NCBI RefSeq assembly: GCF_009749385.1
Contig: NZ_WBIN01000001.1
Coordinates: forward strand, 186,001-250,000
Source of the DNA: Agromyces allii
Lineage (GTDB): Bacteria; Actinomycetota; Actinomycetes; Actinomycetales; Microbacteriaceae
Length of the DNA stretch: 64,000 bases
Direction: 5' to 3'
Every line of letters starts with the position of its first letter. The first letter of the stretch is position 1. Below, piece by piece: positions 30,140 to 41,620 of the stretch. The notes beneath the pieces are model-generated. The model was given only the letters and a program-made list of their open reading frames with translations, did no database searches and was not told the origin of the DNA. The position numbers were made by a program, and so were the translations under genes.

Positions 30140-31114
30140 ATGACGCTCCGGCTGGATCCCGCGCTCCCCCTCGTCTGGCGCACGCCCGAAGACCTGCAGG
30201 TCGGCGCGGCCGCCCCGGTCGCGGTGTTCGAACGCGCCGGCGACGTCGAGGCCGGCCTCATCGCGGCGCTCCGGCACGGCGTGAGCCTCACGACGCTCGT
30301 CACGATCGGCTCGGGCCTCGACGCCTCGCCCGAGCGGGTGCACGAGGTCGTCGAACGCCTGGCGCCGGCGTTCGTGGGCGAGCCGTCGCCGTCGGCTTCC
30401 CGAGGTGATCACGGCCGAGCGGATGCCGCGGTGCGGCGTACGCGAACGGTGGCCGTCGACGGCACCGGCCCGCTCGCCGACCTCATCGCCGCGAACCTCG
30501 CGGCGTTCGGACACTTCGTGCTGCGGCTCGAGCCGCCCGCGCCCGGCGGGGCCCCGGCGAGCACCGACCTTCCCGAACCCGACCTCGTCGTCATCGTCGC
30601 CGCCTGGGCCGTCACGCCCGCACGTCACCTGCCGTGGCTCCGCCGCGACCTGCCGCACCTCGCCGTCGTGAGCGACGACGCCGGCATCCGCGTCGGACCG
30701 TTCGTCGAACCCGGCCGCGGCCCCTGCCTGCGCTGCCTCGACCTCGCTGCTCGAGATGCGGATGCCGCGTGGCCCGTGATCGCCGCGCAGCTCGCCGGGC
30801 GACCGGCCCCCGCCGACACCTCGCGGTTGCGGTTCGACGCCGCCGCACTCGCGGCGACCGTCGTCGACGACCGGTTCAGCGAACAGCTCGAGGGCCGGCC
30901 CGCCCCCGACGCCGCGTCGTCGGCCCGGCACGACCTGACCGCGGCATCCGTCAGGTTCGACCGGCGGGGGTCCTCTGGTCGCCGCCTCGCGCACGCGGAG
31001 CATCCGGCGTGCGGCTGCCGAGCTCCCGCAGGAATCGCGATTCCTCTCGCACTGCCCGCTGCTGGCCGCCGAGCCGCGCCCAGCTCAGCGACAGCCGTCG
31101 CCGAGCGCGCGTGA
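30140..31114 (+). CDS. E1/ThiF-like cyclodehydratase-related protein, unknown function
   Basis: A 324-residue protein. A winged-helix-like N terminus (residues 1-90) is followed by a Rossmann-like half (VAVDGTGPLADLIAANLAAFG) and two Cys pairs, C196-x2-C199 (GPCLRCLD) and C291-x-C293 (HPACGC), that could bind one zinc as in E1-like proteins linked to thiazole/oxazole-modified peptides. No precursor peptide or YcaO gene is near. It occupies the slot of Rv3196-type genes in the conserved block. CAAGCT sits 6 nt before the ATG, suggesting a leaderless start. The last 55 codons, including the second Cys pair, overlap the end of uvrD2 on the other strand. Confidence 0.75.
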   Translation: MTLRLDPALPLVWRTPEDLQVGAAAPVAVFERAGDVEAGLIAALRHGVSLTTLVTIGSGLDASPERVHEVVERLAPAFVGEPSPSASRGDHGRADAAVRRTRTVAVDGTGPLADLIAANLAAFGHFVLRLEPPAPGGAPASTDLPEPDLVVIVAAWAVTPARHLPWLRRDLPHLAVVSDDAGIRVGPFVEPGRGPCLRCLDLAARDADAAWPVIAAQLAGRPAPADTSRLRFDAAALAATVVDDRFSEQLEGRPAPDAASSARHDLTAASVRFDRRGSSGRRLAHAEHPACGCRAPAGIAIPLALPAAGRRAAPSSATAVAERA

Positions 31115-32696
31115 CGCCCACGTAGAACAGGCGGCGCTCCTCGTCGATCGCGTCGAGGCCCTTCGCGTAGGCGATCGGGAGCATGCCCTCGGTGAGCCCG
31201 ACGATGTGCACCTCGTCCCACTCGAGACCCTTCGCCGAGTGCAGGGTCGCGAGCGTGACGGCCTGCACGGTGGGCTCGTGCTGGGCCTCGGCGCGGGCCC
31301 GGAGGTCGTCGGCGAACGCGCGGAACGTGGTGCCGGCCGGGGCGTCGTCGACGAGTCGGGCGAGCGCGTTCAGCGACTCCCACCGCCCGCGCACCGCACC
31401 GGGGCCGTCGGGCGCCTGCGCGGTCCATCCGAGCGAGCGCAGGACGTCGCTCACCGACTTGAAGAGCGGCTCGTTCGCGATCGTGAGCGCTGCGGCGCGC
31501 AGCGCCTGCACCGCCTGGCGCACCTCGGGCTGGTCGAAGAACCGCACGTTGCCGCGGATCCGAGACGCCACGCCCACCTCGTCGAGCGCGTGCTCGAGCA
31601 TCGCCGACTGCGAGTTGACGCGCATGAGCACGGCGATCTGCTCGGGCGCCGCACCCGCGTCGATGCGGTTTCGGATCACCGTCGCGACGCCGCGCGCCTC
31701 GGCCAGCTCATCGGCGTACGACGTGATCGCGGGTTCCTCGCCGAGCTTCTCCGCGGTCGCCGCCCGCAGCTGCAGCGCGCCGGTGCGACCGCGCATGAGC
31801 CGGTTGGCGGCCTCGACGATGGGCTCGACCGAACGATAGTTGCGCTCGAGACGCACGATCGTGGCATCCGCGAACCGACGTTCGAACCCGAGCAGGTACT
31901 CGGGCGTCGCGCCCGCGAACGAGTAGATGGTCTGGCTCGCGTCGCCGACGACGCAGAGCTCGCTGCGATCGCCGAGCCACAGGTCGAGCAGGTGCTGCTG
32001 CGCGGGCGAGACGTCCTGGTACTCGTCGACGACGAAGTGGCGGTAGCTCTCGTGCACCTGCATGGCGACGGACGCCTCGGCCTCGACCATGCCCGAGGTC
32101 GCGAGCAGCACGTCCTCGAAGTCGAGCTGGCGGCGCTCGTCCTTGATGCGCTCGTACGCGGCGACCAGGTCGTGGAACTGGTCGGGCTCGAGCGAGCCGG
32201 GCGCGCCGCGCGCGGCCAGCCGCGCTTCGTAGGCCGCGGGCGTCAGCAGGCCGACCTTGCGCCACTCGATCTCGGCCGCGACGTCGCGGAGCGTGGGCTG
32301 GTCGACGCGCAGGCGGATCGACTCGGCCGCCGCACCCAGCAGCCGCCCCTTGTACTCGAGCACGCGGGGCGCGGCACCGCCGACGACCAGCGGCCAGAAG
32401 TGGTTCAGCTGCGCGAGCGCGGCCGCGTGGAACGTGCGCACCGGCACGCCGCCCGCGCCGAGCAGGCGCAGCCGCTCGCGGAGCTCGGCCGCCGCGCGAG
32501 ACGTGAACGTGAGCGCCATGACGCGCGCCGGATCGTAGGTGCCGCTCGCGACGCCGTAGGCGATGCGATGCGTGATCGCCCGGGTCTTGCCCGTGCCCGC
32601 ACCCGCGAGGATGCAGACCGGCCCGAGCAGCGCCTCGGCCGCGACGCGTTGCTCGTCGTCGAGATCGGCGAGCAGGGGGTCGGATGCCGCGCTCAC
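30951..32696 (-). CDS. uvrD2: UvrD2-type superfamily 1 DNA helicase (short form)
   Basis: A 581-residue SF1A helicase with Walker A AGAGTGKT, motif Ia (ALTFTSRAA), motif II VVDEYQDVS, motif III CVVGDASQTIYSF, motif V (TLHSAKGLEWDEVHIV) and motif VI (YVGVTRARRRL). From memory, mycobacterial UvrD2 is about 700 residues and carries HRDC and four-Cys C-terminal regions; this protein ends soon after motif VI and lacks both. The GTG start overlaps the nudC stop (GTGA), so it is co-translated with nudC. A role in DNA repair or fork clearance is inferred from the family. Confidence 0.9.
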   Translation of the reverse strand: MSAASDPLLADLDDEQRVAAEALLGPVCILAGAGTGKTRAITHRIAYGVASGTYDPARVMALTFTSRAAAELRERLRLLGAGGVPVRTFHAAALAQLNHFWPLVVGGAAPRVLEYKGRLLGAAAESIRLRVDQPTLRDVAAEIEWRKVGLLTPAAYEARLAARGAPGSLEPDQFHDLVAAYERIKDERRQLDFEDVLLATSGMVEAEASVAMQVHESYRHFVVDEYQDVSPAQQHLLDLWLGDRSELCVVGDASQTIYSFAGATPEYLLGFERRFADATIVRLERNYRSVEPIVEAANRLMRGRTGALQLRAATAEKLGEEPAITSYADELAEARGVATVIRNRIDAGAAPEQIAVLMRVNSQSAMLEHALDEVGVASRIRGNVRFFDQPEVRQAVQALRAAALTIANEPLFKSVSDVLRSLGWTAQAPDGPGAVRGRWESLNALARLVDDAPAGTTFRAFADDLRARAEAQHEPTVQAVTLATLHSAKGLEWDEVHIVGLTEGMLPIAYAKGLDAIDEERRLFYVGVTRARRRLSLSWARLGGQQRAVREESRFLRELGSRTPDAPRARGGDQRTPAGRT

Positions 32697-33724
32697 GCGC
32701 CCCAGCCCTGCGGCGAGGACTCGATCGGACCGCCGAACCACTGCTCGAGCATCCACCCCGCGATCGACGTGCGGCCCGGGAACCCGACCTCGGGCAGCGC
32801 GGCCGCGAGTTCGTCGCGGCTGAACCAGCGCAGTTCGAGGATCTCCTCGCCGTCGGGCGCGACGGCGGCGGCCGCCTCGGCCGAGACCGCCCGCGCCGTG
32901 AACCCGAGCATGAGGCTCGCCGGGAACGGCCACGGCTGCGACGCCACGTACGCGACGTCGACGACCTCGAGCCCGGCCTCCTCGCCGATCTCGCGCACGA
33001 CCGCGGACTCGAGCGACTCCCCCGGCTCGACGAACCCGGCGAGCAGCGAGAAGCGGTTGGACTGCCACATGGCGTTCGATCCGAGCAGCACGCGATCGTC
33101 GGCATCGGTCACGAGCACGATGACCGCGGCATCCGTTCTCGGGAACACCTGACCGCCGTCGTTCGTGCACCGGCGCGACCATCCGGACTCGATCGGCTCG
33201 GTCGGGGCGCCGCAGCGCGGGCAGAACCCGCTCGCCCGGTGCCAGTTCGCGATCGCGACGGCCTGCGTGAAGAGGCCCGCATCGCGATCGGAGAGCATCG
33301 GCGCGGCCTGGCGGAGGCCCGCCCACCGCGCCTCCTCCGGCTCGAGCAGCATCGCCGCGGACTCGTCGAGCACCCAGGCCTCGATGGGGGCACCCGCGTG
33401 CGCAGAACCCTCCTCGTCGAGGGCGCGACCGAGGTACACGCGGAGCGCATCCGGTGCCACCGGCCCGGCGCCCTCGTCGGTCGCACCGGCATCGGAACGC
33501 CCGGCAGCGGACACGGCCGCCGAGACCTCGGACGGCGGGCGCAGGTCGAGCACGGGCGAAGCACCCTCCACCCGCTCGGTGAGCAGTGCCCGGCCGTCGC
33601 GCAGCAGGAGCACGCGGGCGTCGGGATCCGCGTCGAACCGCGCGGAACGATCAGCGGCACCACGGCCGATGCCGTCGCGATCGAGGTGCGCCCGAGCGAG
33701 GGGCGGGGGTGTCGATTCGCGCAC
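32693..33724 (-). CDS. nudC: NudC-type NAD+/NADH diphosphatase (NUDIX)
   Basis: A 343-residue NUDIX hydrolase. The Nudix box GFVEPGESLESAVVREIGEE is complete, and the SQPWPFPASLM motif that marks NudC NADH-pyrophosphatases follows it. Upstream is a zinc ribbon with CPRC and one more Cys (RRCTN); the fourth expected Cys is missing. The N-terminal domain is the usual beta-rich NudC one. Members cleave NAD(H) and remove NAD caps from RNA. It heads the nudC-uvrD2 unit and is divergent from the phosphotransferase-fold gene. GTG 33724 was chosen by length; ATG 33793 would add an unlikely basic tail. Confidence 0.9.
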   Translation of the reverse strand: MRESTPPPLARAHLDRDGIGRGAADRSARFDADPDARVLLLRDGRALLTERVEGASPVLDLRPPSEVSAAVSAAGRSDAGATDEGAGPVAPDALRVYLGRALDEEGSAHAGAPIEAWVLDESAAMLLEPEEARWAGLRQAAPMLSDRDAGLFTQAVAIANWHRASGFCPRCGAPTEPIESGWSRRCTNDGGQVFPRTDAAVIVLVTDADDRVLLGSNAMWQSNRFSLLAGFVEPGESLESAVVREIGEEAGLEVVDVAYVASQPWPFPASLMLGFTARAVSAEAAAAVAPDGEEILELRWFSRDELAAALPEVGFPGRTSIAGWMLEQWFGGPIESSPQGWGA

Positions 33725-33798
33725 GGCGTCTCTCTCTCGCGTCGGGCCGGAGTCGGCGGCAAGGCGTGGCGCTCGCCGCGGCGACCGAATCACCTGCT

Positions 33799-33804
33799 TA
33801 AGCT
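33799..33804 (+). promoter_or_regulatory. Leaderless -10 box of the pseudokinase gene
   Basis: TAAGCT lies 7 nt before the ATG at 33812 with no ribosome site in between, the leaderless layout. Confidence 0.6.
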
Positions 33805-33811
33805 GTTGGCC

Positions 33812-35056
33812 ATGGCCAGACCCACTCTCACTCTAGCCGCGTTGGCCACGGCGGCAGTCCCCGGCCTCGAGGTCTCCGCGGCCCGCCCCCGCACCAGGCA
33901 CTCCGGCGGCGCGTTCGACGCCGTCGAGCTGCACGCGACCGACGGCCGCCACCTGATCCTCCGCATTCCACGAACCCAGAGCGCCGAGACCGAGCAGTCC
34001 GCCGACCTCGTCGCACTCCGCGCGATGACCACCGGCATCCGTTCGCGCCTCCCGTTCGACGCGCCCGTCTTCGTCGGTCAGGCGCCGTTCGGCGGCACGC
34101 GCGCGATCGTCACGGAGTTCCTGGACGGTCACGTGCTGAACGCCGACGAACTCACGGCCCACGACCGGCTGGCCGAGTCGGTCGGAACGTCGATCGCGGC
34201 GATCCACTCGCTGCCCTCCGGGTTCGTGGGCGATGCCGGCCTCACCCGCGAGAGCGACGGCGAGGCTCGCGACGCGGTCGTCGAGCTCATCGGCCGCGCC
34301 GCCGACACCGGCCGCCTGCCCGCCGCGCTGCTCCGACGGTGGGAGGAGGCGACCGACGACGAGTCGCTCTGGCGCTTCCGGACGACCGTCGTCAACGGCG
34401 CGCTGTCCTCCGACTCCTTCATCGTCGACGAGGAGCGCGTCTCGGCGATCATCGGCTGGTCGGCACTCGCGGTCGGCGACCCCGCCCGCGACCTGCACTG
34501 GCTGCTCACCTCTCGCGGACCGTCCGCGGAACGCGCACTCGAGGCGTACACGGTCGGCCGCAGCGGCGGTGCCGACGCCGCCCTGCCGCAGCGCGCCCTG
34601 CTCTACGGCGAGCTCGAACTCGCCCGTTGGCTGCTGCACGGCGTCGAGGCGCGCGACGAGGCGATCATCGACGATGCGGTCGGCATGCTCGACGAGCTCG
34701 TCGCGAACGTGCACGACCGCACGAGCGAGACGCTCTCGCACCACACGGGTCCGATCCTCACGGTCGACGGCGTCGAACGCCTGCTCGACGAGACGCCCCG
34801 CACGACGCCCGCCCGCGACGCCTCTGGTCGCGAGACGTCCTCGGCACTGCTGACCGACAGCTACGACTTCTCGGAGCTCGAGTTGAGCGAGCGCGGCGAA
34901 CGGTCGTCGGCCCTCGCCGACGCGACGGCGCCGATCCCGCTCGATCTCAGCGACTGGGGCGATGCGACACCCGGCGACGCGGCGTCAGGCGGTCGGGCGG
35001 ATGCCGCGGCCGACGAGTCCGACGCCGACGAGCGTCCGAGCCGCACCGGGTCCTGA
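33812..35056 (+). CDS. APH-fold phosphotransferase homologue, probable pseudokinase
   Basis: A 414-residue protein whose first 310 residues follow the aminoglycoside/macrolide phosphotransferase fold: a substrate-recognition lobe, SFIVDEERVSAIIGW, then GDPARDLHWLL. The catalytic residues are gone. Where active members have HGD...N and IDW, this one has Asn195-Gly-Ala197, Ser in place of the metal-binding Asn, and Ile214-Gly215-Trp216. It is therefore unlikely to transfer phosphate. A 100-residue acidic tail (Asp/Ser/Ala-rich) follows. It is divergent from nudC and converges on adnB with a 46-bp gap, so it sits within a DNA-repair neighbourhood. A ligand-binding or scaffolding role is possible. 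Confidence 0.8.
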   Translation: MARPTLTLAALATAAVPGLEVSAARPRTRHSGGAFDAVELHATDGRHLILRIPRTQSAETEQSADLVALRAMTTGIRSRLPFDAPVFVGQAPFGGTRAIVTEFLDGHVLNADELTAHDRLAESVGTSIAAIHSLPSGFVGDAGLTRESDGEARDAVVELIGRAADTGRLPAALLRRWEEATDDESLWRFRTTVVNGALSSDSFIVDEERVSAIIGWSALAVGDPARDLHWLLTSRGPSAERALEAYTVGRSGGADAALPQRALLYGELELARWLLHGVEARDEAIIDDAVGMLDELVANVHDRTSETLSHHTGPILTVDGVERLLDETPRTTPARDASGRETSSALLTDSYDFSELELSERGERSSALADATAPIPLDLSDWGDATPGDAASGGRADAAADESDADERPSRTGS

Positions 35057-35102: not shown

Positions 35103-38100
35103 TCAGCTCTGGACGGCGGCCGCCCAGGCCCGGCGCAGTTCGGCCTCGTCGTAGAGCTCGTCGGGCCTGATCACCCGGTCGTCCTCGACGAAGTAGAACA
35201 CGGCGTCGACCTCCTCGGGAGGGATTCCGGCCCAGGCCGCATAGGCGAGGCGGTACAACGCGAGCTGCGTCTGCTTGAGCTCGAGGTCGCGCGCATTGCG
35301 GGGTGCGCGGCCGGTCTTCCAGTCGACGACCTGGTAGCGGATGCCTCTCGCGGCCAGTTCGCCGCCCTCGGGAACGTCGTAGACGGCGTCGAGCTTGCAC
35401 ACGAACACGTGCTCGTCGACGGGCAGGTGCAGCTCGATCTCGACCTCGACCGGCCGACGCGAACCCCACTCGGAGGCCTCGAACGTCGCCCGGAGCGCCG
35501 CCATGCGGTCGAGGCTCTCGGCGCCCGCGCCCGTCTGAGCGCCGAGGACGCCGTCGTCGCCTCGGCCGGACTCGACGAGCTCGCCGGGGTCGGCCGCGCC
35601 GAGCAGCTCGACGCCGAAGAGGCCGTCGTCGAGCGCGGCCGCTGCCGACTCGCCGGTGGAGCGGTGCTCGACCCATTCGTGGAACAGCGTGCCGAGTCGG
35701 GTCGCCCGATAGGGGCGCTGCGGCATGGGACGACGCAGCTGCGCGGCGACGGCTTCGGGGTCGTCGAGGTAGTCCTTGAACCGCGACGCGGGCACACGAG
35801 AGGGAATCGGCGTCGGCCCGGGGCCGGCCTGGCGGCGTCGACGCTCCTCGATGAGCAGCGTCAGCTCCGACGACAGCTGCGGGCCGATGCCGGCGCCGCT
35901 GGGGCCCTCGGCGGCCTGTCGAACGGCGTCGGCCGCCCGCACCACGCCCGGCCGGCGCGCACCGAGCGGATCGAGCGGCCACTGCACCCGGGCATCAGCC
36001 TCGGCACGCGGGTTCTCGCTGTCTCCGGGCGCGGTCGGGAGCAGCTCGGGCTCGATGACGCCCGCGACCGCGAGCTCCCGCAGAAACGCGCTCGGCGGGC
36101 GCGCCGTCTTCTGCGTCGACCACCACGACCCGCTGAGCAGCAGGTCGGAGCGGGTGCGGGTGACGGCGACGTACGCGAGACGACGCTCCTCGTCGGCGTG
36201 ACGCTCGCGGTTCTCCTCGGCGAACGCCGTGACCGCCTCGTCGAACTCACGTTGGCTCTGCACCCCGCGCCAGCCCAGCTCGGGCAGTTCGTCGCGGTCG
36301 CCCTTGAACTCGTTCGGCAGCTCGCCGAACGCGAGCCAGCCCTTCGCCGACCGCGGCTTGGACGGGATCTCCTGATCGACCATGCGCGGCACCGCGACGA
36401 CGTCCCACTCGAGGCCCTTCGACCCGTGGATCGAGAGCACCTGCACGGCGCCCGGCTCTGGCTCGTCTTGACGGGGCGACAGCCGGTCGCGCTGCTCCGC
36501 CTCGGTGAGCCAGCTGAGGAAGGCGCCGAGCGTCGGGTGCTCGGAGTCGTCGGCGAAGCCCGCGAGCAGTTCGTCGAAGGCCTCGAGGCTGGGCCGGCCC
36601 AGCGGCTGGTCGGCATTCGCGGCGACCTCGATGTCGAGCAGCAGCTCCTGCTGCACGAGGTGCACGAAGTCGATGAGGCCGAGCCCCGCTCTGCGGCGGA
36701 GCGCCTGCAACTGGGTGCCCGCGCGTCGGAGGCGCGCGAGCCCGGAAGCGCTGATGCCGGCCAGCGCTCGGTGGTCGTCGGGCGCCGTGAGCACGAAGTC
36801 GAGCGCGTCGACGATCGACGGGGACTCCTCGGCCGCGGTCGAGGCCCGCAGCTCGCGCCGCACGTCGTCGTCGAGCCGACGACGCGCGAGGTCGCGGTCG
36901 ACGAGCCACCTCGCGACGTCTCTGAGACCCGAGAGGTCGGCCGGGCCGATGCGCCACCTGGCGCCGCCGAGCACACGGACGAGCTCCGCGCCCGCCGTGG
37001 GATCGTGCAGGACGCGGAGCACGCACACGAGGTCGGCGATCACGGGCTGGTCGAGCAGGCCCGCCATGCCGAGCACGTGCACGGGCACGCCGTGCGCGCG
37101 CAGGGCCTGCGTGAAGACGCCGACGTTGGCGAACGTCCGGCAGAGCAGCGCACCGCTCCTGGCCGCCGCGGCAGGATCGGGCGCGGTTCCGGGTCGACGG
37201 CTGCGCCCGAGCCGGTCCGCGAACCAGCGTGCGACCTGGTCGGCCTCGTCGTCGATGGTCTCGCCCCAGGCGACGTCGAGCCGGCCCGCGCCGGCGAACG
37301 GCGAGGGCGCGAGCGGCGCCTTGGGGATGCCGGCGTCGAGCGAGGCGATGAGCGTGTTCGCCGCATCGAGCACGATGCGCGGGTTCCGCCAGCTGGTCGA
37401 CAGGTGGTAGACCGACGCGGCCCCCTTGCCGAAGTCGCGGTCGAATCGGGCGAGGTTGGCGGCGCTCGCGCCGCGCCATCCGTAGATCGACTGGTCGGGG
37501 TCGCCGACCGCCATGACGGGGTGCCCCTCGAAGAGCGACGCGAGCAGTCGCGTCTGCACGACGCTCGTGTCCTGATACTCGTCGAGCAGCACGGTGCGCG
37601 AGCGCTCCCGGTGCTCGGCGACGACGTCGGGGTGCTCGACGCAGATCTGCAGCGCGAGGGCGACCTGATCGGAGAACTCGACGTACCCGCGCTCGCGCTT
37701 GGCGGCCGCGTACGCGTCGGCGAGTTCGAGCAGGGGCGGGAGTGCGTCGACCACGCCGAGCGCGCCGACGAACGATTCGAAGTCGGTGCGTTTGCGGGGC
37801 GCCTCGATGGGCAGCCCGCGCATGGCGAGGAAGTCGCGGGCGAAGGCGCGCACATCGCGGCTGTCGGCCACGTTCTCGGCGAGGGCGCGGCTCAACGAGA
37901 GCGCCGCTCCGGTGACGCGGTCGAGGGAGGCGTCGAGCTCGATGAGCCGGTCGTCGGCCGACGCGCTCACGACCGAACGGGCCAGCAGCCACGCGGACGC
38001 CTCGCCGAGCACGGTCGCGTCGGGTTCGCGCCCGATGCGCATCGCGTGCTCGCGATAGATCGCGCTCGCGAACGAGTGATAGGTGCTGACGGTCGCCGAC

Positions 38101-38444
38101 TCGAGCGGATCGATGACGAGGTCGGCGATGCCCTCGTGCACGAGTTGCGCGACGCGCTCGCGCACGCGCTCGGCGAGCTCGCCGGCGGCCTTTCGCGTGA
38201 AGGTCAGGCCGAGCACGTCGGCGACGCCCACGTGCCCGTTGGCGAGCAGCCACACGACCCGGTTGGCCATGGTCTCGGTCTTGCCGCTGCCCGCACCGGC
38301 GACGACGATGCTCGCGCCGTGCGGGTCTGCCTCGATGACCGCCTGCTGCTCAGGCGTGGGAACGTGCAGGCCCAGTCGCGTCGCGATCTCGGCCGCGCTC
38401 AGGCGGTTCACGACCGGACTCGCGCCATTCGCCCCGGCGCTCAC
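35103..38444 (-). CDS. adnB: AdnB subunit of AdnAB helicase-nuclease
   Basis: A 1113-residue SF1 helicase with a C-terminal nuclease. Motor motifs: AGAGSGKTET (Walker A), GLTFTRKAA, LLDEYQDTS (motif II), GDPDQSIYGWRG, SIHGSKGLEWDVVAV and YVAVTRTRSDL. The C-terminal 250 residues carry the RecB-type nuclease motif VVDWKTGR and YRLAYAAW. In mycobacteria AdnB is the lead motor of the AdnAB double-strand-break resection machine. The GTG start overlaps the adnA stop (GTGA). Length matches mycobacterial AdnB (about 1100). An AddA name would also be used by some annotators. Confidence 0.92.
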   Translation of the reverse strand: MSAGANGASPVVNRLSAAEIATRLGLHVPTPEQQAVIEADPHGASIVVAGAGSGKTETMANRVVWLLANGHVGVADVLGLTFTRKAAGELAERVRERVAQLVHEGIADLVIDPLESATVSTYHSFASAIYREHAMRIGREPDATVLGEASAWLLARSVVSASADDRLIELDASLDRVTGAALSLSRALAENVADSRDVRAFARDFLAMRGLPIEAPRKRTDFESFVGALGVVDALPPLLELADAYAAAKRERGYVEFSDQVALALQICVEHPDVVAEHRERSRTVLLDEYQDTSVVQTRLLASLFEGHPVMAVGDPDQSIYGWRGASAANLARFDRDFGKGAASVYHLSTSWRNPRIVLDAANTLIASLDAGIPKAPLAPSPFAGAGRLDVAWGETIDDEADQVARWFADRLGRSRRPGTAPDPAAAARSGALLCRTFANVGVFTQALRAHGVPVHVLGMAGLLDQPVIADLVCVLRVLHDPTAGAELVRVLGGARWRIGPADLSGLRDVARWLVDRDLARRRLDDDVRRELRASTAAEESPSIVDALDFVLTAPDDHRALAGISASGLARLRRAGTQLQALRRRAGLGLIDFVHLVQQELLLDIEVAANADQPLGRPSLEAFDELLAGFADDSEHPTLGAFLSWLTEAEQRDRLSPRQDEPEPGAVQVLSIHGSKGLEWDVVAVPRMVDQEIPSKPRSAKGWLAFGELPNEFKGDRDELPELGWRGVQSQREFDEAVTAFAEENRERHADEERRLAYVAVTRTRSDLLLSGSWWSTQKTARPPSAFLRELAVAGVIEPELLPTAPGDSENPRAEADARVQWPLDPLGARRPGVVRAADAVRQAAEGPSGAGIGPQLSSELTLLIEERRRRQAGPGPTPIPSRVPASRFKDYLDDPEAVAAQLRRPMPQRPYRATRLGTLFHEWVEHRSTGESAAAALDDGLFGVELLGAADPGELVESGRGDDGVLGAQTGAGAESLDRMAALRATFEASEWGSRRPVEVEIELHLPVDEHVFVCKLDAVYDVPEGGELAARGIRYQVVDWKTGRAPRNARDLELKQTQLALYRLAYAAWAGIPPEEVDAVFYFVEDDRVIRPDELYDEAELRRAWAAAVQS

Positions 38445-41400
38445 GCCGAGACCGCCGGCACGAGGTGCACGCGGTACTGCCACGAGCCGAACCTGGATCG
38501 TTGCCCCGGCTCGGTCGACCCCTCGAAGCTCGATCCGGCCATCACCCGACCGACCTCGGCGAGCCGTTCTCGGAACGCGGCCTCGGCCTCGTCGTCGAAC
38601 GGTTGCTGGGCGCGTTCGGTGTACGCGAGCCCGCGCGACGGCGTCGCGACGTAGACGAGCTTCGCGCCGCCGAGCACACCCGCCGACGGCACGGCCTGCT
38701 GACGCGCCGCCAGCTGGTACGCGGCGAGCTGCGGATGCGCGGCCGTCTGCGGATACGTCGGCGGCGTGCGGCCGGTCTTGATGTCGACGATCACGGTCGT
38801 GCCGTCGGCCGATGCCTCGATGCGGTCGATGGTGCCGGTGATGCGCACCCGGTCGATGGTGATGGTGAACTTCCCTTCGGCGCCGAGCAGCACCTTCGCG
38901 TCGTCGTCGAACGAGCCCAGGTACTCGGCCGCTCCCTCGGCCATGCGCCGAGCACCGCGCCGCTCGCGTTCGGCAACCCAGCCGGCCTCGAAGCGCACGC
39001 CCTTCAGCCGCTCCTCGACCGCCGCCCAGATCGCCTCGACGTCGGTCGCGCCGTCGTCTCGACCGCCGACCTCTTCGACGACGGCGTGCACGATCGTGCC
39101 GATCGATGCCGCGACGCCCGACGGCGGGGACGCGATGTGGTCGACGAACCAGCCGAGAGGCGACTCCTCGACGCGGTCGATCTGCGAGGGCGACACCTGG
39201 ACGGATGCCTCGGGGTCGCCCTGGAGGTCGACGAGCGGCGCCTCGCTCGAGAGGTCGGAGAGTCCGTACCACTCGGCCGGGTTCGCACCGGGCACGCCCT
39301 CTTCGGCGAGGAGCGCCAGCGCGGCCGCGGACTCGGGGTCGCCCGTGACGGCCTCGCGCCGCAGCGCACCGACGAGCGCGCGGAGCTGAAGCGGCCGACG
39401 GCGCGGGCGCACGCGTTCGCGGGCGTAGCCCATGAGGACCGACGGCTGCTCGTCGTCGTTCGCCGTGCAGGCGAGCACGAGCTGTCGCCGAGCCCGCGAG
39501 ACGGCGAGCACGAACATGCGCAGCTCGTCGTCGCGCACCGCGGCGCGGACCTCGGCCGGCGTCTCGACGCCGGGCAGCGGCGAACCGGATCGCGCGGCCT
39601 GCGCCACGCGCGGCAGGAGACCGGCGTGCAGCAGCGTGCCTCGCGGCCGGAGGTTGGGCCAGACGGCGTCTTGCAGACCGGCGACGACGACCACGTCGAA
39701 CTCGCGGCCGACCACGCCCTGCGGGGTGGTCACGAGCACGGTCTCGGTGGTGCGCCGCGGCGCGAGCGAGTCTTCGGGCAACTCGCTCGCGAGCACCTCG
39801 TCGACGAACCGCACGGCGGGAGCGTCGGGTTCGCGTTCGACGAACCGGGTGGCGGCGGAGAACAGGGCGACCGCGGCATCGAGCGAACGGTCGGCCTCAT
39901 CGGCCAGCACGCCGGTGCCCGCCGCCTGCCGCCCCCACTCGGTGCCGAGTCCGCCGCCCTCCCACAGCGACCAGAGCACCTCTTCGACGGTGCCGCCGCC
40001 GCGGGCGACCCGGATCGCATCGTCGAGCACGGATGCGAGCCTCGCCGCGCGACGGCCCGGCGCCGCGTCGATCGTCACGAACCCGCCGGGCGCGGAGAGC
40101 GCGTCGACGAGCAGTTCGTCGCCGGTGCGCGCGCCGCCGGCCGCGAGCTCCTCATGCCGGAGCGCGAGACGCAGACGTCGGAGCCCGATGCCGTCGAGCC
40201 GGCCGATCGGGCCGGTGAGCAGGGTGACGGCGAGCTCGGCCGTGAGCGGCTCGCGGCCGAGCACGAACGAGCAGGCCGTGAGCAGCGCAGCCGCCGCGGG
40301 CGCATCGCGCAGCGCGAGCCCCGTCGCGGCGCCCGCCGTCGGAACGTCGGCGAGCGCGAGCGCGCGCTCGACGGTCGGCACGTCGCCGCCCGAGCGGAGC
40401 ACGACCGCCATCTGCGACCACGGCACGCCGTCGAGCAGATGGCGCTCGCGCAGCAGCGCCGCGATCGCCTGGTACTCGGCCGCGCCCGAGACGGCTTCGA
40501 TGCCGAGCACGGGCGTCAACGGGTCGACCGCGGCAGAGCCGGCGACCGGCTCGGAGGCCGCATCGGCGCCCGCCAGCCGTGCTGAGCGATGCGTGCCGCC
40601 GAGCGCCGTGCCGATATGGGTGCGCACGCCGGAGACGACCTCGGCGATCTCGGACCGCCCGCGGTGCACGATCGGCAGCTCGAGGCGCCGAACGGGGGCG
40701 CCCTCGAGCATCGAGCTGAGCGATCCGAGCAGTTCGGGCCGGCCGCCGCGGAACCCGTTGCTCGCGACATCGGGGTCGCCGATCGCGACGATCTGCACCC
40801 CGCACGCGGCGAACGCGGCGATGAGCGAGGCCGACGCCTCGGTGGTCTCCTGCGCGTCGTCGACGACGAGCAGGCGCAGCCCCGCGAGCGGCCCCAGCGC
40901 GACGGACGCCTCGGGGTCGGTTCGACTGCGGCGCACGATCGCCGCCGCGAACGCGCCGAGTTCGGCCGAGTCGAACTGGTTCGGCCGCACCTGGTCCTTC
41001 ACGTCGGCGTACTCGGCCATGAAGTCGGCCGCGGACACCCACTCCGGGCGACCGGCGGCCTCGCCGAGGCGGGCGAGCTCGCCCTCGTCGACGCCGAGTT
41101 CGACCGCGCGCATGAGAAGGTCGCGCAGTTCGGTGCGGAACCCCCTGAGCCCCCGCACCTCGGGCGTGAGCGGCTCGGGCCAGGCGGGGCCGAAGCCGTC
41201 GCGGATGCCGCCCTCGACGAGGTCGGCGACGATGCGGTCGTGCTCGCCGCCCGTCAGCAGCGTGACGGGCGCCGCCGTGTAGGCGCGCACGAGCTGGAAG
41301 GCCATGGAGTTCGCAGTGCGCGCGAGCGGACCGCGCGTGGTGACGCCGAGCCGCACCGCGATGCGATCGCGCAGCGCGGTGGCCGTGGACCGGCTCGAAC

Positions 41401-41614
41401 AGAGCACGAGCACGTCGTCGACCCCGTAGCCGAGGCGCGCGACGCGGTCGGCGACGAGCTCGACCGCGAGCGTCGTCTTGCCAGAGCCCGGGGCCCCGAA
41501 CACCGCGTGGTGCAGGCCCTCGGAGATGCCCTCGGCGAGCTGCGCCGCCTGCCTCGCGGACTCGGGTGCGACGAGGGTCGCATCGGGCTGCGACGGGGCG
41601 GTGGGGCTGGGCAT
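38441..41614 (-). CDS. adnA: AdnA subunit of AdnAB helicase-nuclease
   Basis: A 1057-residue subunit with Walker A GAPGSGKTTLAVE, motif II LLVVDDAQE (Asp where most helicases have Glu), motif V-like VTTPQGVVGREFDVVVVAG, and a C-terminal RecB-type nuclease domain (TVIVDIKTGRTPP, then QLAAYQLAARQ). The weakened motor motif fits AdnA acting as the non-lead motor in mycobacteria. It is first in the adnA-adnB unit. ATG 41614 is preceded at exactly 6 nt by TAACGT, so a leaderless transcript is likely; GTG 41620 would lie between that box and the ATG. Confidence 0.92.
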   Translation of the reverse strand: MPSPTAPSQPDATLVAPESARQAAQLAEGISEGLHHAVFGAPGSGKTTLAVELVADRVARLGYGVDDVLVLCSSRSTATALRDRIAVRLGVTTRGPLARTANSMAFQLVRAYTAAPVTLLTGGEHDRIVADLVEGGIRDGFGPAWPEPLTPEVRGLRGFRTELRDLLMRAVELGVDEGELARLGEAAGRPEWVSAADFMAEYADVKDQVRPNQFDSAELGAFAAAIVRRSRTDPEASVALGPLAGLRLLVVDDAQETTEASASLIAAFAACGVQIVAIGDPDVASNGFRGGRPELLGSLSSMLEGAPVRRLELPIVHRGRSEIAEVVSGVRTHIGTALGGTHRSARLAGADAASEPVAGSAAVDPLTPVLGIEAVSGAAEYQAIAALLRERHLLDGVPWSQMAVVLRSGGDVPTVERALALADVPTAGAATGLALRDAPAAAALLTACSFVLGREPLTAELAVTLLTGPIGRLDGIGLRRLRLALRHEELAAGGARTGDELLVDALSAPGGFVTIDAAPGRRAARLASVLDDAIRVARGGGTVEEVLWSLWEGGGLGTEWGRQAAGTGVLADEADRSLDAAVALFSAATRFVEREPDAPAVRFVDEVLASELPEDSLAPRRTTETVLVTTPQGVVGREFDVVVVAGLQDAVWPNLRPRGTLLHAGLLPRVAQAARSGSPLPGVETPAEVRAAVRDDELRMFVLAVSRARRQLVLACTANDDEQPSVLMGYARERVRPRRRPLQLRALVGALRREAVTGDPESAAALALLAEEGVPGANPAEWYGLSDLSSEAPLVDLQGDPEASVQVSPSQIDRVEESPLGWFVDHIASPPSGVAASIGTIVHAVVEEVGGRDDGATDVEAIWAAVEERLKGVRFEAGWVAERERRGARRMAEGAAEYLGSFDDDAKVLLGAEGKFTITIDRVRITGTIDRIEASADGTTVIVDIKTGRTPPTYPQTAAHPQLAAYQLAARQQAVPSAGVLGGAKLVYVATPSRGLAYTERAQQPFDDEAEAAFRERLAEVGRVMAGSSFEGSTEPGQRSRFGSWQYRVHLVPAVSA

Positions 41615-41620
41615 GCCCAC

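Follow-up and report, generated by a model that had tools for sequence, protein, structure and literature searches.

What keeps a gene with the fold of an antibiotic kinase, and none of the residues for its chemistry, in one place in the genome? The question is raised by a protein of 414 residues encoded between nudC and adnAB in the window analysed here, a stretch of 64,000 nucleotides from Agromyces allii (Table 1). Literature searches on the gene or its neighbourhood found no paper on the family.

Kinase fold and lost catalytic residues

The protein matches the Pfam APH family (PF01636) with 62.6 bits against a curated cut-off of 23.2, and AlphaFold2 predicts an Mph/APH(2'') kinase fold for residues 1-303. 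The model was built from an alignment of 81 window and related sequences. Its mean pLDDT is 84.2, and almost every residue from 41 to 300 exceeds 90. It matches MphH (5uxb) with a Z score of 26.4 over 282 residues and MphA with Z scores of 24.5-26.1, at 24-26% identity across the two. The Pfam score and this full-length fold match place the protein in the APH/CAK fold, with the macrolide kinases MphA and MphH as its nearest solved relatives. It does not belong to a named type of macrolide 2'-phosphotransferase (best NCBIfam score 58 bits, compared with 550 for MphA), and NCBIfam holds no curated family for it.

In the phmmer alignment to MphA, VVNGALSSDSF lies under VVHGDLYVGHV and IIGW under MIDW. 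The catalytic His is replaced by N195, the catalytic Asp by A197 and the metal Asp by G215, which confirms the losses and the residue numbering of the original prediction. All three signatures are indeed lost together, but that list was incomplete, as it missed a fourth loss, S202 at the second metal ligand, a position held by His in Mph and by Asn in most kinases. The catalytic residues named by the authors of the MphH structure, Glu196, His201 and Asp214 (PMC5760710), align to A197, S202 and G215. Without a catalytic Asp/Glu or a metal Asp/His/Asn at these three positions, the protein is not an active kinase of the Mph/APH type as these are defined. The fold motifs around the lost residues had been described as intact, and the model agrees (core pLDDT above 90 over most of its length, Z 26 to MphH). 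As modelled, the Agromyces protein keeps the kinase fold while the residues for the chemistry are gone.

The C-terminal tail had been taken for an acidic addition of 100 residues. It is acidic (24 D+E, 9 K+R) but comprises 111 residues (304-414), and its proximal segment (~305-330) is conserved in many Microbacteriaceae, while the rest is variable. Short family members of ~330 residues end just after this segment.

Table 1. Features of the pseudokinase locus, in coordinates of the window.
Feature	Position	Strand	Evidence
APH/Mph-fold pseudokinase gene, 414 aa (stop included)	33812..35056	+	ORF, Pfam APH 6e-17, AF2 pLDDT 84.2, Z 26.4 to MphH 5uxb
Kinase-fold core, residues 1-303	33812..34720	+	AF2, VIA-align range 4-303, dN/dS
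Degenerate catalytic loop VVNGALSSDSF, residues 193-203 (N195, A197, S202)	34388..34420	+	alignments
Degenerate metal-Asp motif IIGW, residues 213-216 (G215)	34448..34459	+	alignments
Conserved C-terminal segment, residues 305-330, TGPILxVxDVExML; predicted helix 318-327	34724..34801	+	conservation, AF2
Acidic, poorly conserved, predicted disordered tail, residues 331-414	34802..35053	+	conservation, composition, AF2
GGCGTGGCG box upstream of the gene	33763..33771	+	conserved in Microbacteriaceae; one match with such spacing in the genome
-10 element TAAGCT at -13 from the ATG	33799..33804	+	TANNNT conservation
nudC, NAD+ diphosphatase, divergent neighbour	32693..33724	-	NF001299 216 bits, cut-off 158
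uvrD2-type helicase, in a block with nudC	30951..32696	-	Pfam UvrD-helicase 1e-49
AdnB-type UvrD helicase with PD-(D/E)XK nuclease, convergent neighbour	35103..38411	-	domain matches, synteny
AdnA-type helicase-nuclease	38441..41620	-	domain matches, synteny

Distribution, locus and upstream region

Whole-genome searches found an orthologue in 119 of 120 Microbacteriaceae genomes and in 145 of 149 genomes of the order; the assemblies of the five genomes lacking one are all fragmented, with 240 to 1060 contigs. Reduced genomes of ~0.8-0.93 Mb keep the gene. An even more degenerate loop, VVKKNFSMDSF, was seen at the same locus in a genome of 927,303 bases (L083, G015). Outside the order but within the class, match scores drop sharply.

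The naming of nudC and adnAB as neighbours proved correct: NudC scores above its NCBIfam cut-off, and UvrD2 and two UvrD/PD-(D/E)XK proteins adjoin, the latter named AdnA and AdnB here by analogy to mycobacteria. With these neighbours as tblastn queries, the arrangement uvrD2(-) nudC(-) gene(+) adnB(-) adnA(-) was recovered throughout the order, the gene nearly always occupying the divergent slot between uvrD2-nudC and adnAB. At several loci (L081-L085, L088 and L089) nudC is missing and the gene adjoins uvrD2, which it also does at L101-L103, with neither nudC nor a detectable adnB at the locus. No uvrD2 or nudC turned up in the vicinity of L109-L111, and two of these loci have adnB next to the gene. 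In some families (L101-L103 and L113) the protein is very long or highly diverged (510-613 aa). Outside the order, most Actinomycetes possess nudC and adnAB but lack the gene, and a profile search around the 29 nudC loci examined there yielded no orthologue. Where the slot between adnAB and nudC was inspected by eye in other orders, it apparently holds an M20 peptidase, an endonuclease/exonuclease/phosphatase-like protein or an ion-channel-like protein. As uvrD2, nudC and adnB can each be missing at the locus, and other genes fill the slot elsewhere, the synteny marks an old block and designates no single partner. The gene always runs opposite to its neighbours and is therefore not co-transcribed with them.

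Two types of related gene were also observed. In two genomes from outside the order (G273, locus L203, and G285, locus L201), an APH gene with intact HGD and DW motifs is convergent to an AdnB-type gene, and this may represent either the ancestral state of the family or an independent arrival. In addition, a second APH/Mph-like gene, more distantly related and possibly MphH-like, lies elsewhere in some of the order's genomes (G262:C1:1223234-1223992, G163:C8:38369-39094 and G208:C3:57712-58404).

Comparison of the upstream regions of L001-L120 and L206-L285 revealed a TANNNT element at -12/-13 in 161 of 169 distinct regions (shuffled mean 1.5). This conservation across the order implies a leaderless transcript, as judged from sequence, and backs the ATG at 33812 as the start; a longer ORF of 790 aa over the gene is GC-rich read-through. 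A GCGTGGC-type box ~47 bases upstream is found in 121/127 Microbacteriaceae regions and in 2/42 others. It was ruled out as a regulon marker, as with the spacing to the -10 element it marks only the pseudokinase gene in the genome.

Residue conservation and selection

The residue comparison covered 117 sequences from the family genomes and 80 named records, to which 62 sequences were added from the order's other families. Both the catalytic and the metal Asp are absent from 162 of the 185 distinct Microbacteriaceae sequences; the metal Asp only is kept in 13, the catalytic Asp only in four, and in six either of the positions is taken by Glu. None of the 185 has both, and the substitutions are lineage-wide in this family. 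A few of the members retaining one Asp may have residual activity. Sister species with intact HGD and IDW would, in the original prediction, have pointed to a decaying copy: no such form occurs among the Microbacteriaceae sequences compared, and intact forms are confined to the order's other families, where 19 of 61 distinct sequences have both Asp.

Other residues hardly vary. H132, W177, D223, D227 and R261 are invariant in all 259 sequences, with P170 and E267 nearly so, and among the 197 Microbacteriaceae sequences R51 is found in 188, as is an acid at position 65 (~95%). D223 and D227 belong to the DPAxD motif common to MphA and MphH. The pair R261/E267 has no conserved counterpart in MphA when the two are aligned and appears specific to the order-wide pseudokinase family; its helix appears to match the substrate-pocket helix of MphH (PMC5760710). 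The inactive bacterial spore kinases (BSKs) also keep a His/Asp pair that stabilises the C-lobe (PMC2860764), and H132 and D227 would fit this pair, judging by motif position.

The core is under strong purifying selection, with dN/dS of ~0.02-0.16 in close pairs, compared with mostly 0.1-0.6 for the tail; these values come from pairs with dS under ~0.35, the all-pairs medians (0.44 for the core) being saturated and not used. With the catalytic Asp lost, H132 and D227 present in 259/259 sequences and selection maintained, the protein is a pseudokinase of the APH/CAK fold. On a gene tree from which the motif columns had been left out, at least nine changes of state were counted for the catalytic Asp/Glu and at least 22 for the metal Asp, long branches making the exact counts unsure. 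The main loss spans nearly all Microbacteriaceae and a few long-branch sequences; a separate family shows additional ones. Given these repeated changes, the constant role of the protein seems to have no need for phosphotransfer. The natural reading would be a weak constraint on catalysis across the order and a strong constraint on another function.

A probable conserved role without catalysis and its alternatives

The retained non-catalytic role proposed originally is thus well supported by the lineage-wide substitutions, the strong purifying selection and the near-universal presence of the gene, and we consider it probable that the order-wide family has a conserved function of this kind. Counted against this reading is the precedent of kinases with unusual catalytic residues, namely MphH, with Glu for Asp, and CASK, whose kinase activity is cation-independent (PMC4718504). 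An Mph/APH(2'')-type small-molecule kinase would have given rise to an order-wide family at a single locus, the Agromyces gene being its Microbacteriaceae version. The non-catalytic function would have stayed constant, with phosphate transfer dispensable and repeatedly lost. The Agromyces protein would then act as a binding module. A nucleotide or a small ligand may still be bound in its two-lobed fold because the β3 Arg51 and the αC acid at 65 are kept, which for nucleotide binding is only suggestive. Its state could be passed to a partner through the C-lobe, by way of the helix carrying the invariant R261 and E267, with the conserved C-terminal helix 318-327 as a possible second output route.

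UvrD2, AdnAB and NudC are the first candidates for this partner, although the chance that it is among the three together is well below even. The DNA repair or NAD capping link proposed for the gene holds as to its adjoining position; it is weakened by the persistence of the gene without nudC or adnAB, by its antiparallel orientation and by nudC and adnAB occurring elsewhere without it. Because the gene persists where either is lost, the links to NudC and AdnAB are positional only. A more specific scheme sees in the protein a regulator that defines the order and is universally retained: on sensing a nucleotide or metabolite, the kinase fold would control DNA processing by UvrD2/AdnAB via the C-lobe and the C-terminal helix, activity having been lost several times independently as only binding mattered. 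This scheme is a speculative one that we hold to be unlikely.

Among the alternatives, the protein could be a stoichiometric binder that sequesters an antibiotic-like molecule and gives intrinsic tolerance without chemistry. Macrolide kinases are its closest solved structures, and the invariant R261/E267 helix appears to match a wall of the MphH substrate pocket (PMC5760710); however, even the Mph enzymes differ from one another in their macrolide pocket (PMC6109786) and universal retention in very reduced genomes hardly suggests an antibiotic role, which leaves this explanation improbable. A cryptic enzyme, catalysing another reaction (e.g., AMP transfer) or phosphotransfer with non-canonical residues, is a shade more doubtful. 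D223, D227, R261 and E267, all invariant or nearly so, could serve other chemistry, and SelO is one apparent pseudokinase with activity that offers a precedent. CASK is another (PMC4718504). Against this, D223 and D227 are shared with MphA and MphH and so are probably structural, and what fills positions 197, 202 and 215 varies between species, which is not the pattern of a new active site. We give still less credence to a dedicated regulator of NudC or of NAD-capped RNA: nudC is the divergent neighbour and shares a conserved upstream region with the gene, but the gene is kept at the loci devoid of nudC and most other Actinomycetes have nudC without the gene. Finally, the reading of the gene as the relic of a macrolide or aminoglycoside kinase nearing loss, to which the missing catalytic residues and the variable tail might point, is strongly disfavoured and can be rejected, as 119 of the 120 family genomes have the gene at this locus, genomes of 0.8-0.93 Mb keep it and its core is constrained.

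Sequence searches would label the gene a macrolide or aminoglycoside phosphotransferase; being near-universal and strongly constrained in a whole order, and devoid of a complete catalytic set throughout the Microbacteriaceae, it should not count as a resistance gene. Moreover, intact and degenerate orthologues at one locus provide a natural experiment on a kinase fold without chemistry.

Several known systems resemble the Agromyces protein in part. With MphH of Brachybacterium faecium and MphA it shares the whole core fold, the R-x-P-R β3 motif, RW...W and DPAxD. It differs from them in lacking the catalytic Asp/Glu, the metal His/Asn and the metal Asp, in the R261/E267 helix and C-terminal tail added by the pseudokinase family, and in being encoded by a chromosomal, order-wide gene and not by a resistance cassette. 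ActPs1, ActPs2 and ActPs3 are likewise actinobacterial with degenerate kinase motifs (PMC12599244), but these are members of the Ser/Thr protein kinase family, often membrane-associated, whereas the protein described here is of the APH/Mph type. The main text of that 2025 survey of actinobacterial Ser/Thr pseudokinase families does not mention APH or macrolide kinases, save aminoglycoside kinases as drug targets (PMC12599244). The closest precedent is found in the BSKs (YtaA/CotI, CotS, YutH and YsxE), also of the APH/choline-kinase group, in which catalysis was lost repeatedly and independently with the folding residues kept, and for which the authors infer a common non-enzymatic function (PMC2860764). 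The BSKs are spore-coat proteins of Firmicutes, while the present family is actinobacterial and lies beside uvrD2-nudC-adnAB; nor is its Agromyces member a BSK by profile, the only match being TIGR02904 (YsxE) at E 0.026, with 13.8 bits against a cut-off of 263.55. APH/CAK pseudokinases with repeated loss of catalysis were thus already known from the BSKs, and what is new is an order-wide actinobacterial family at the adnAB locus.
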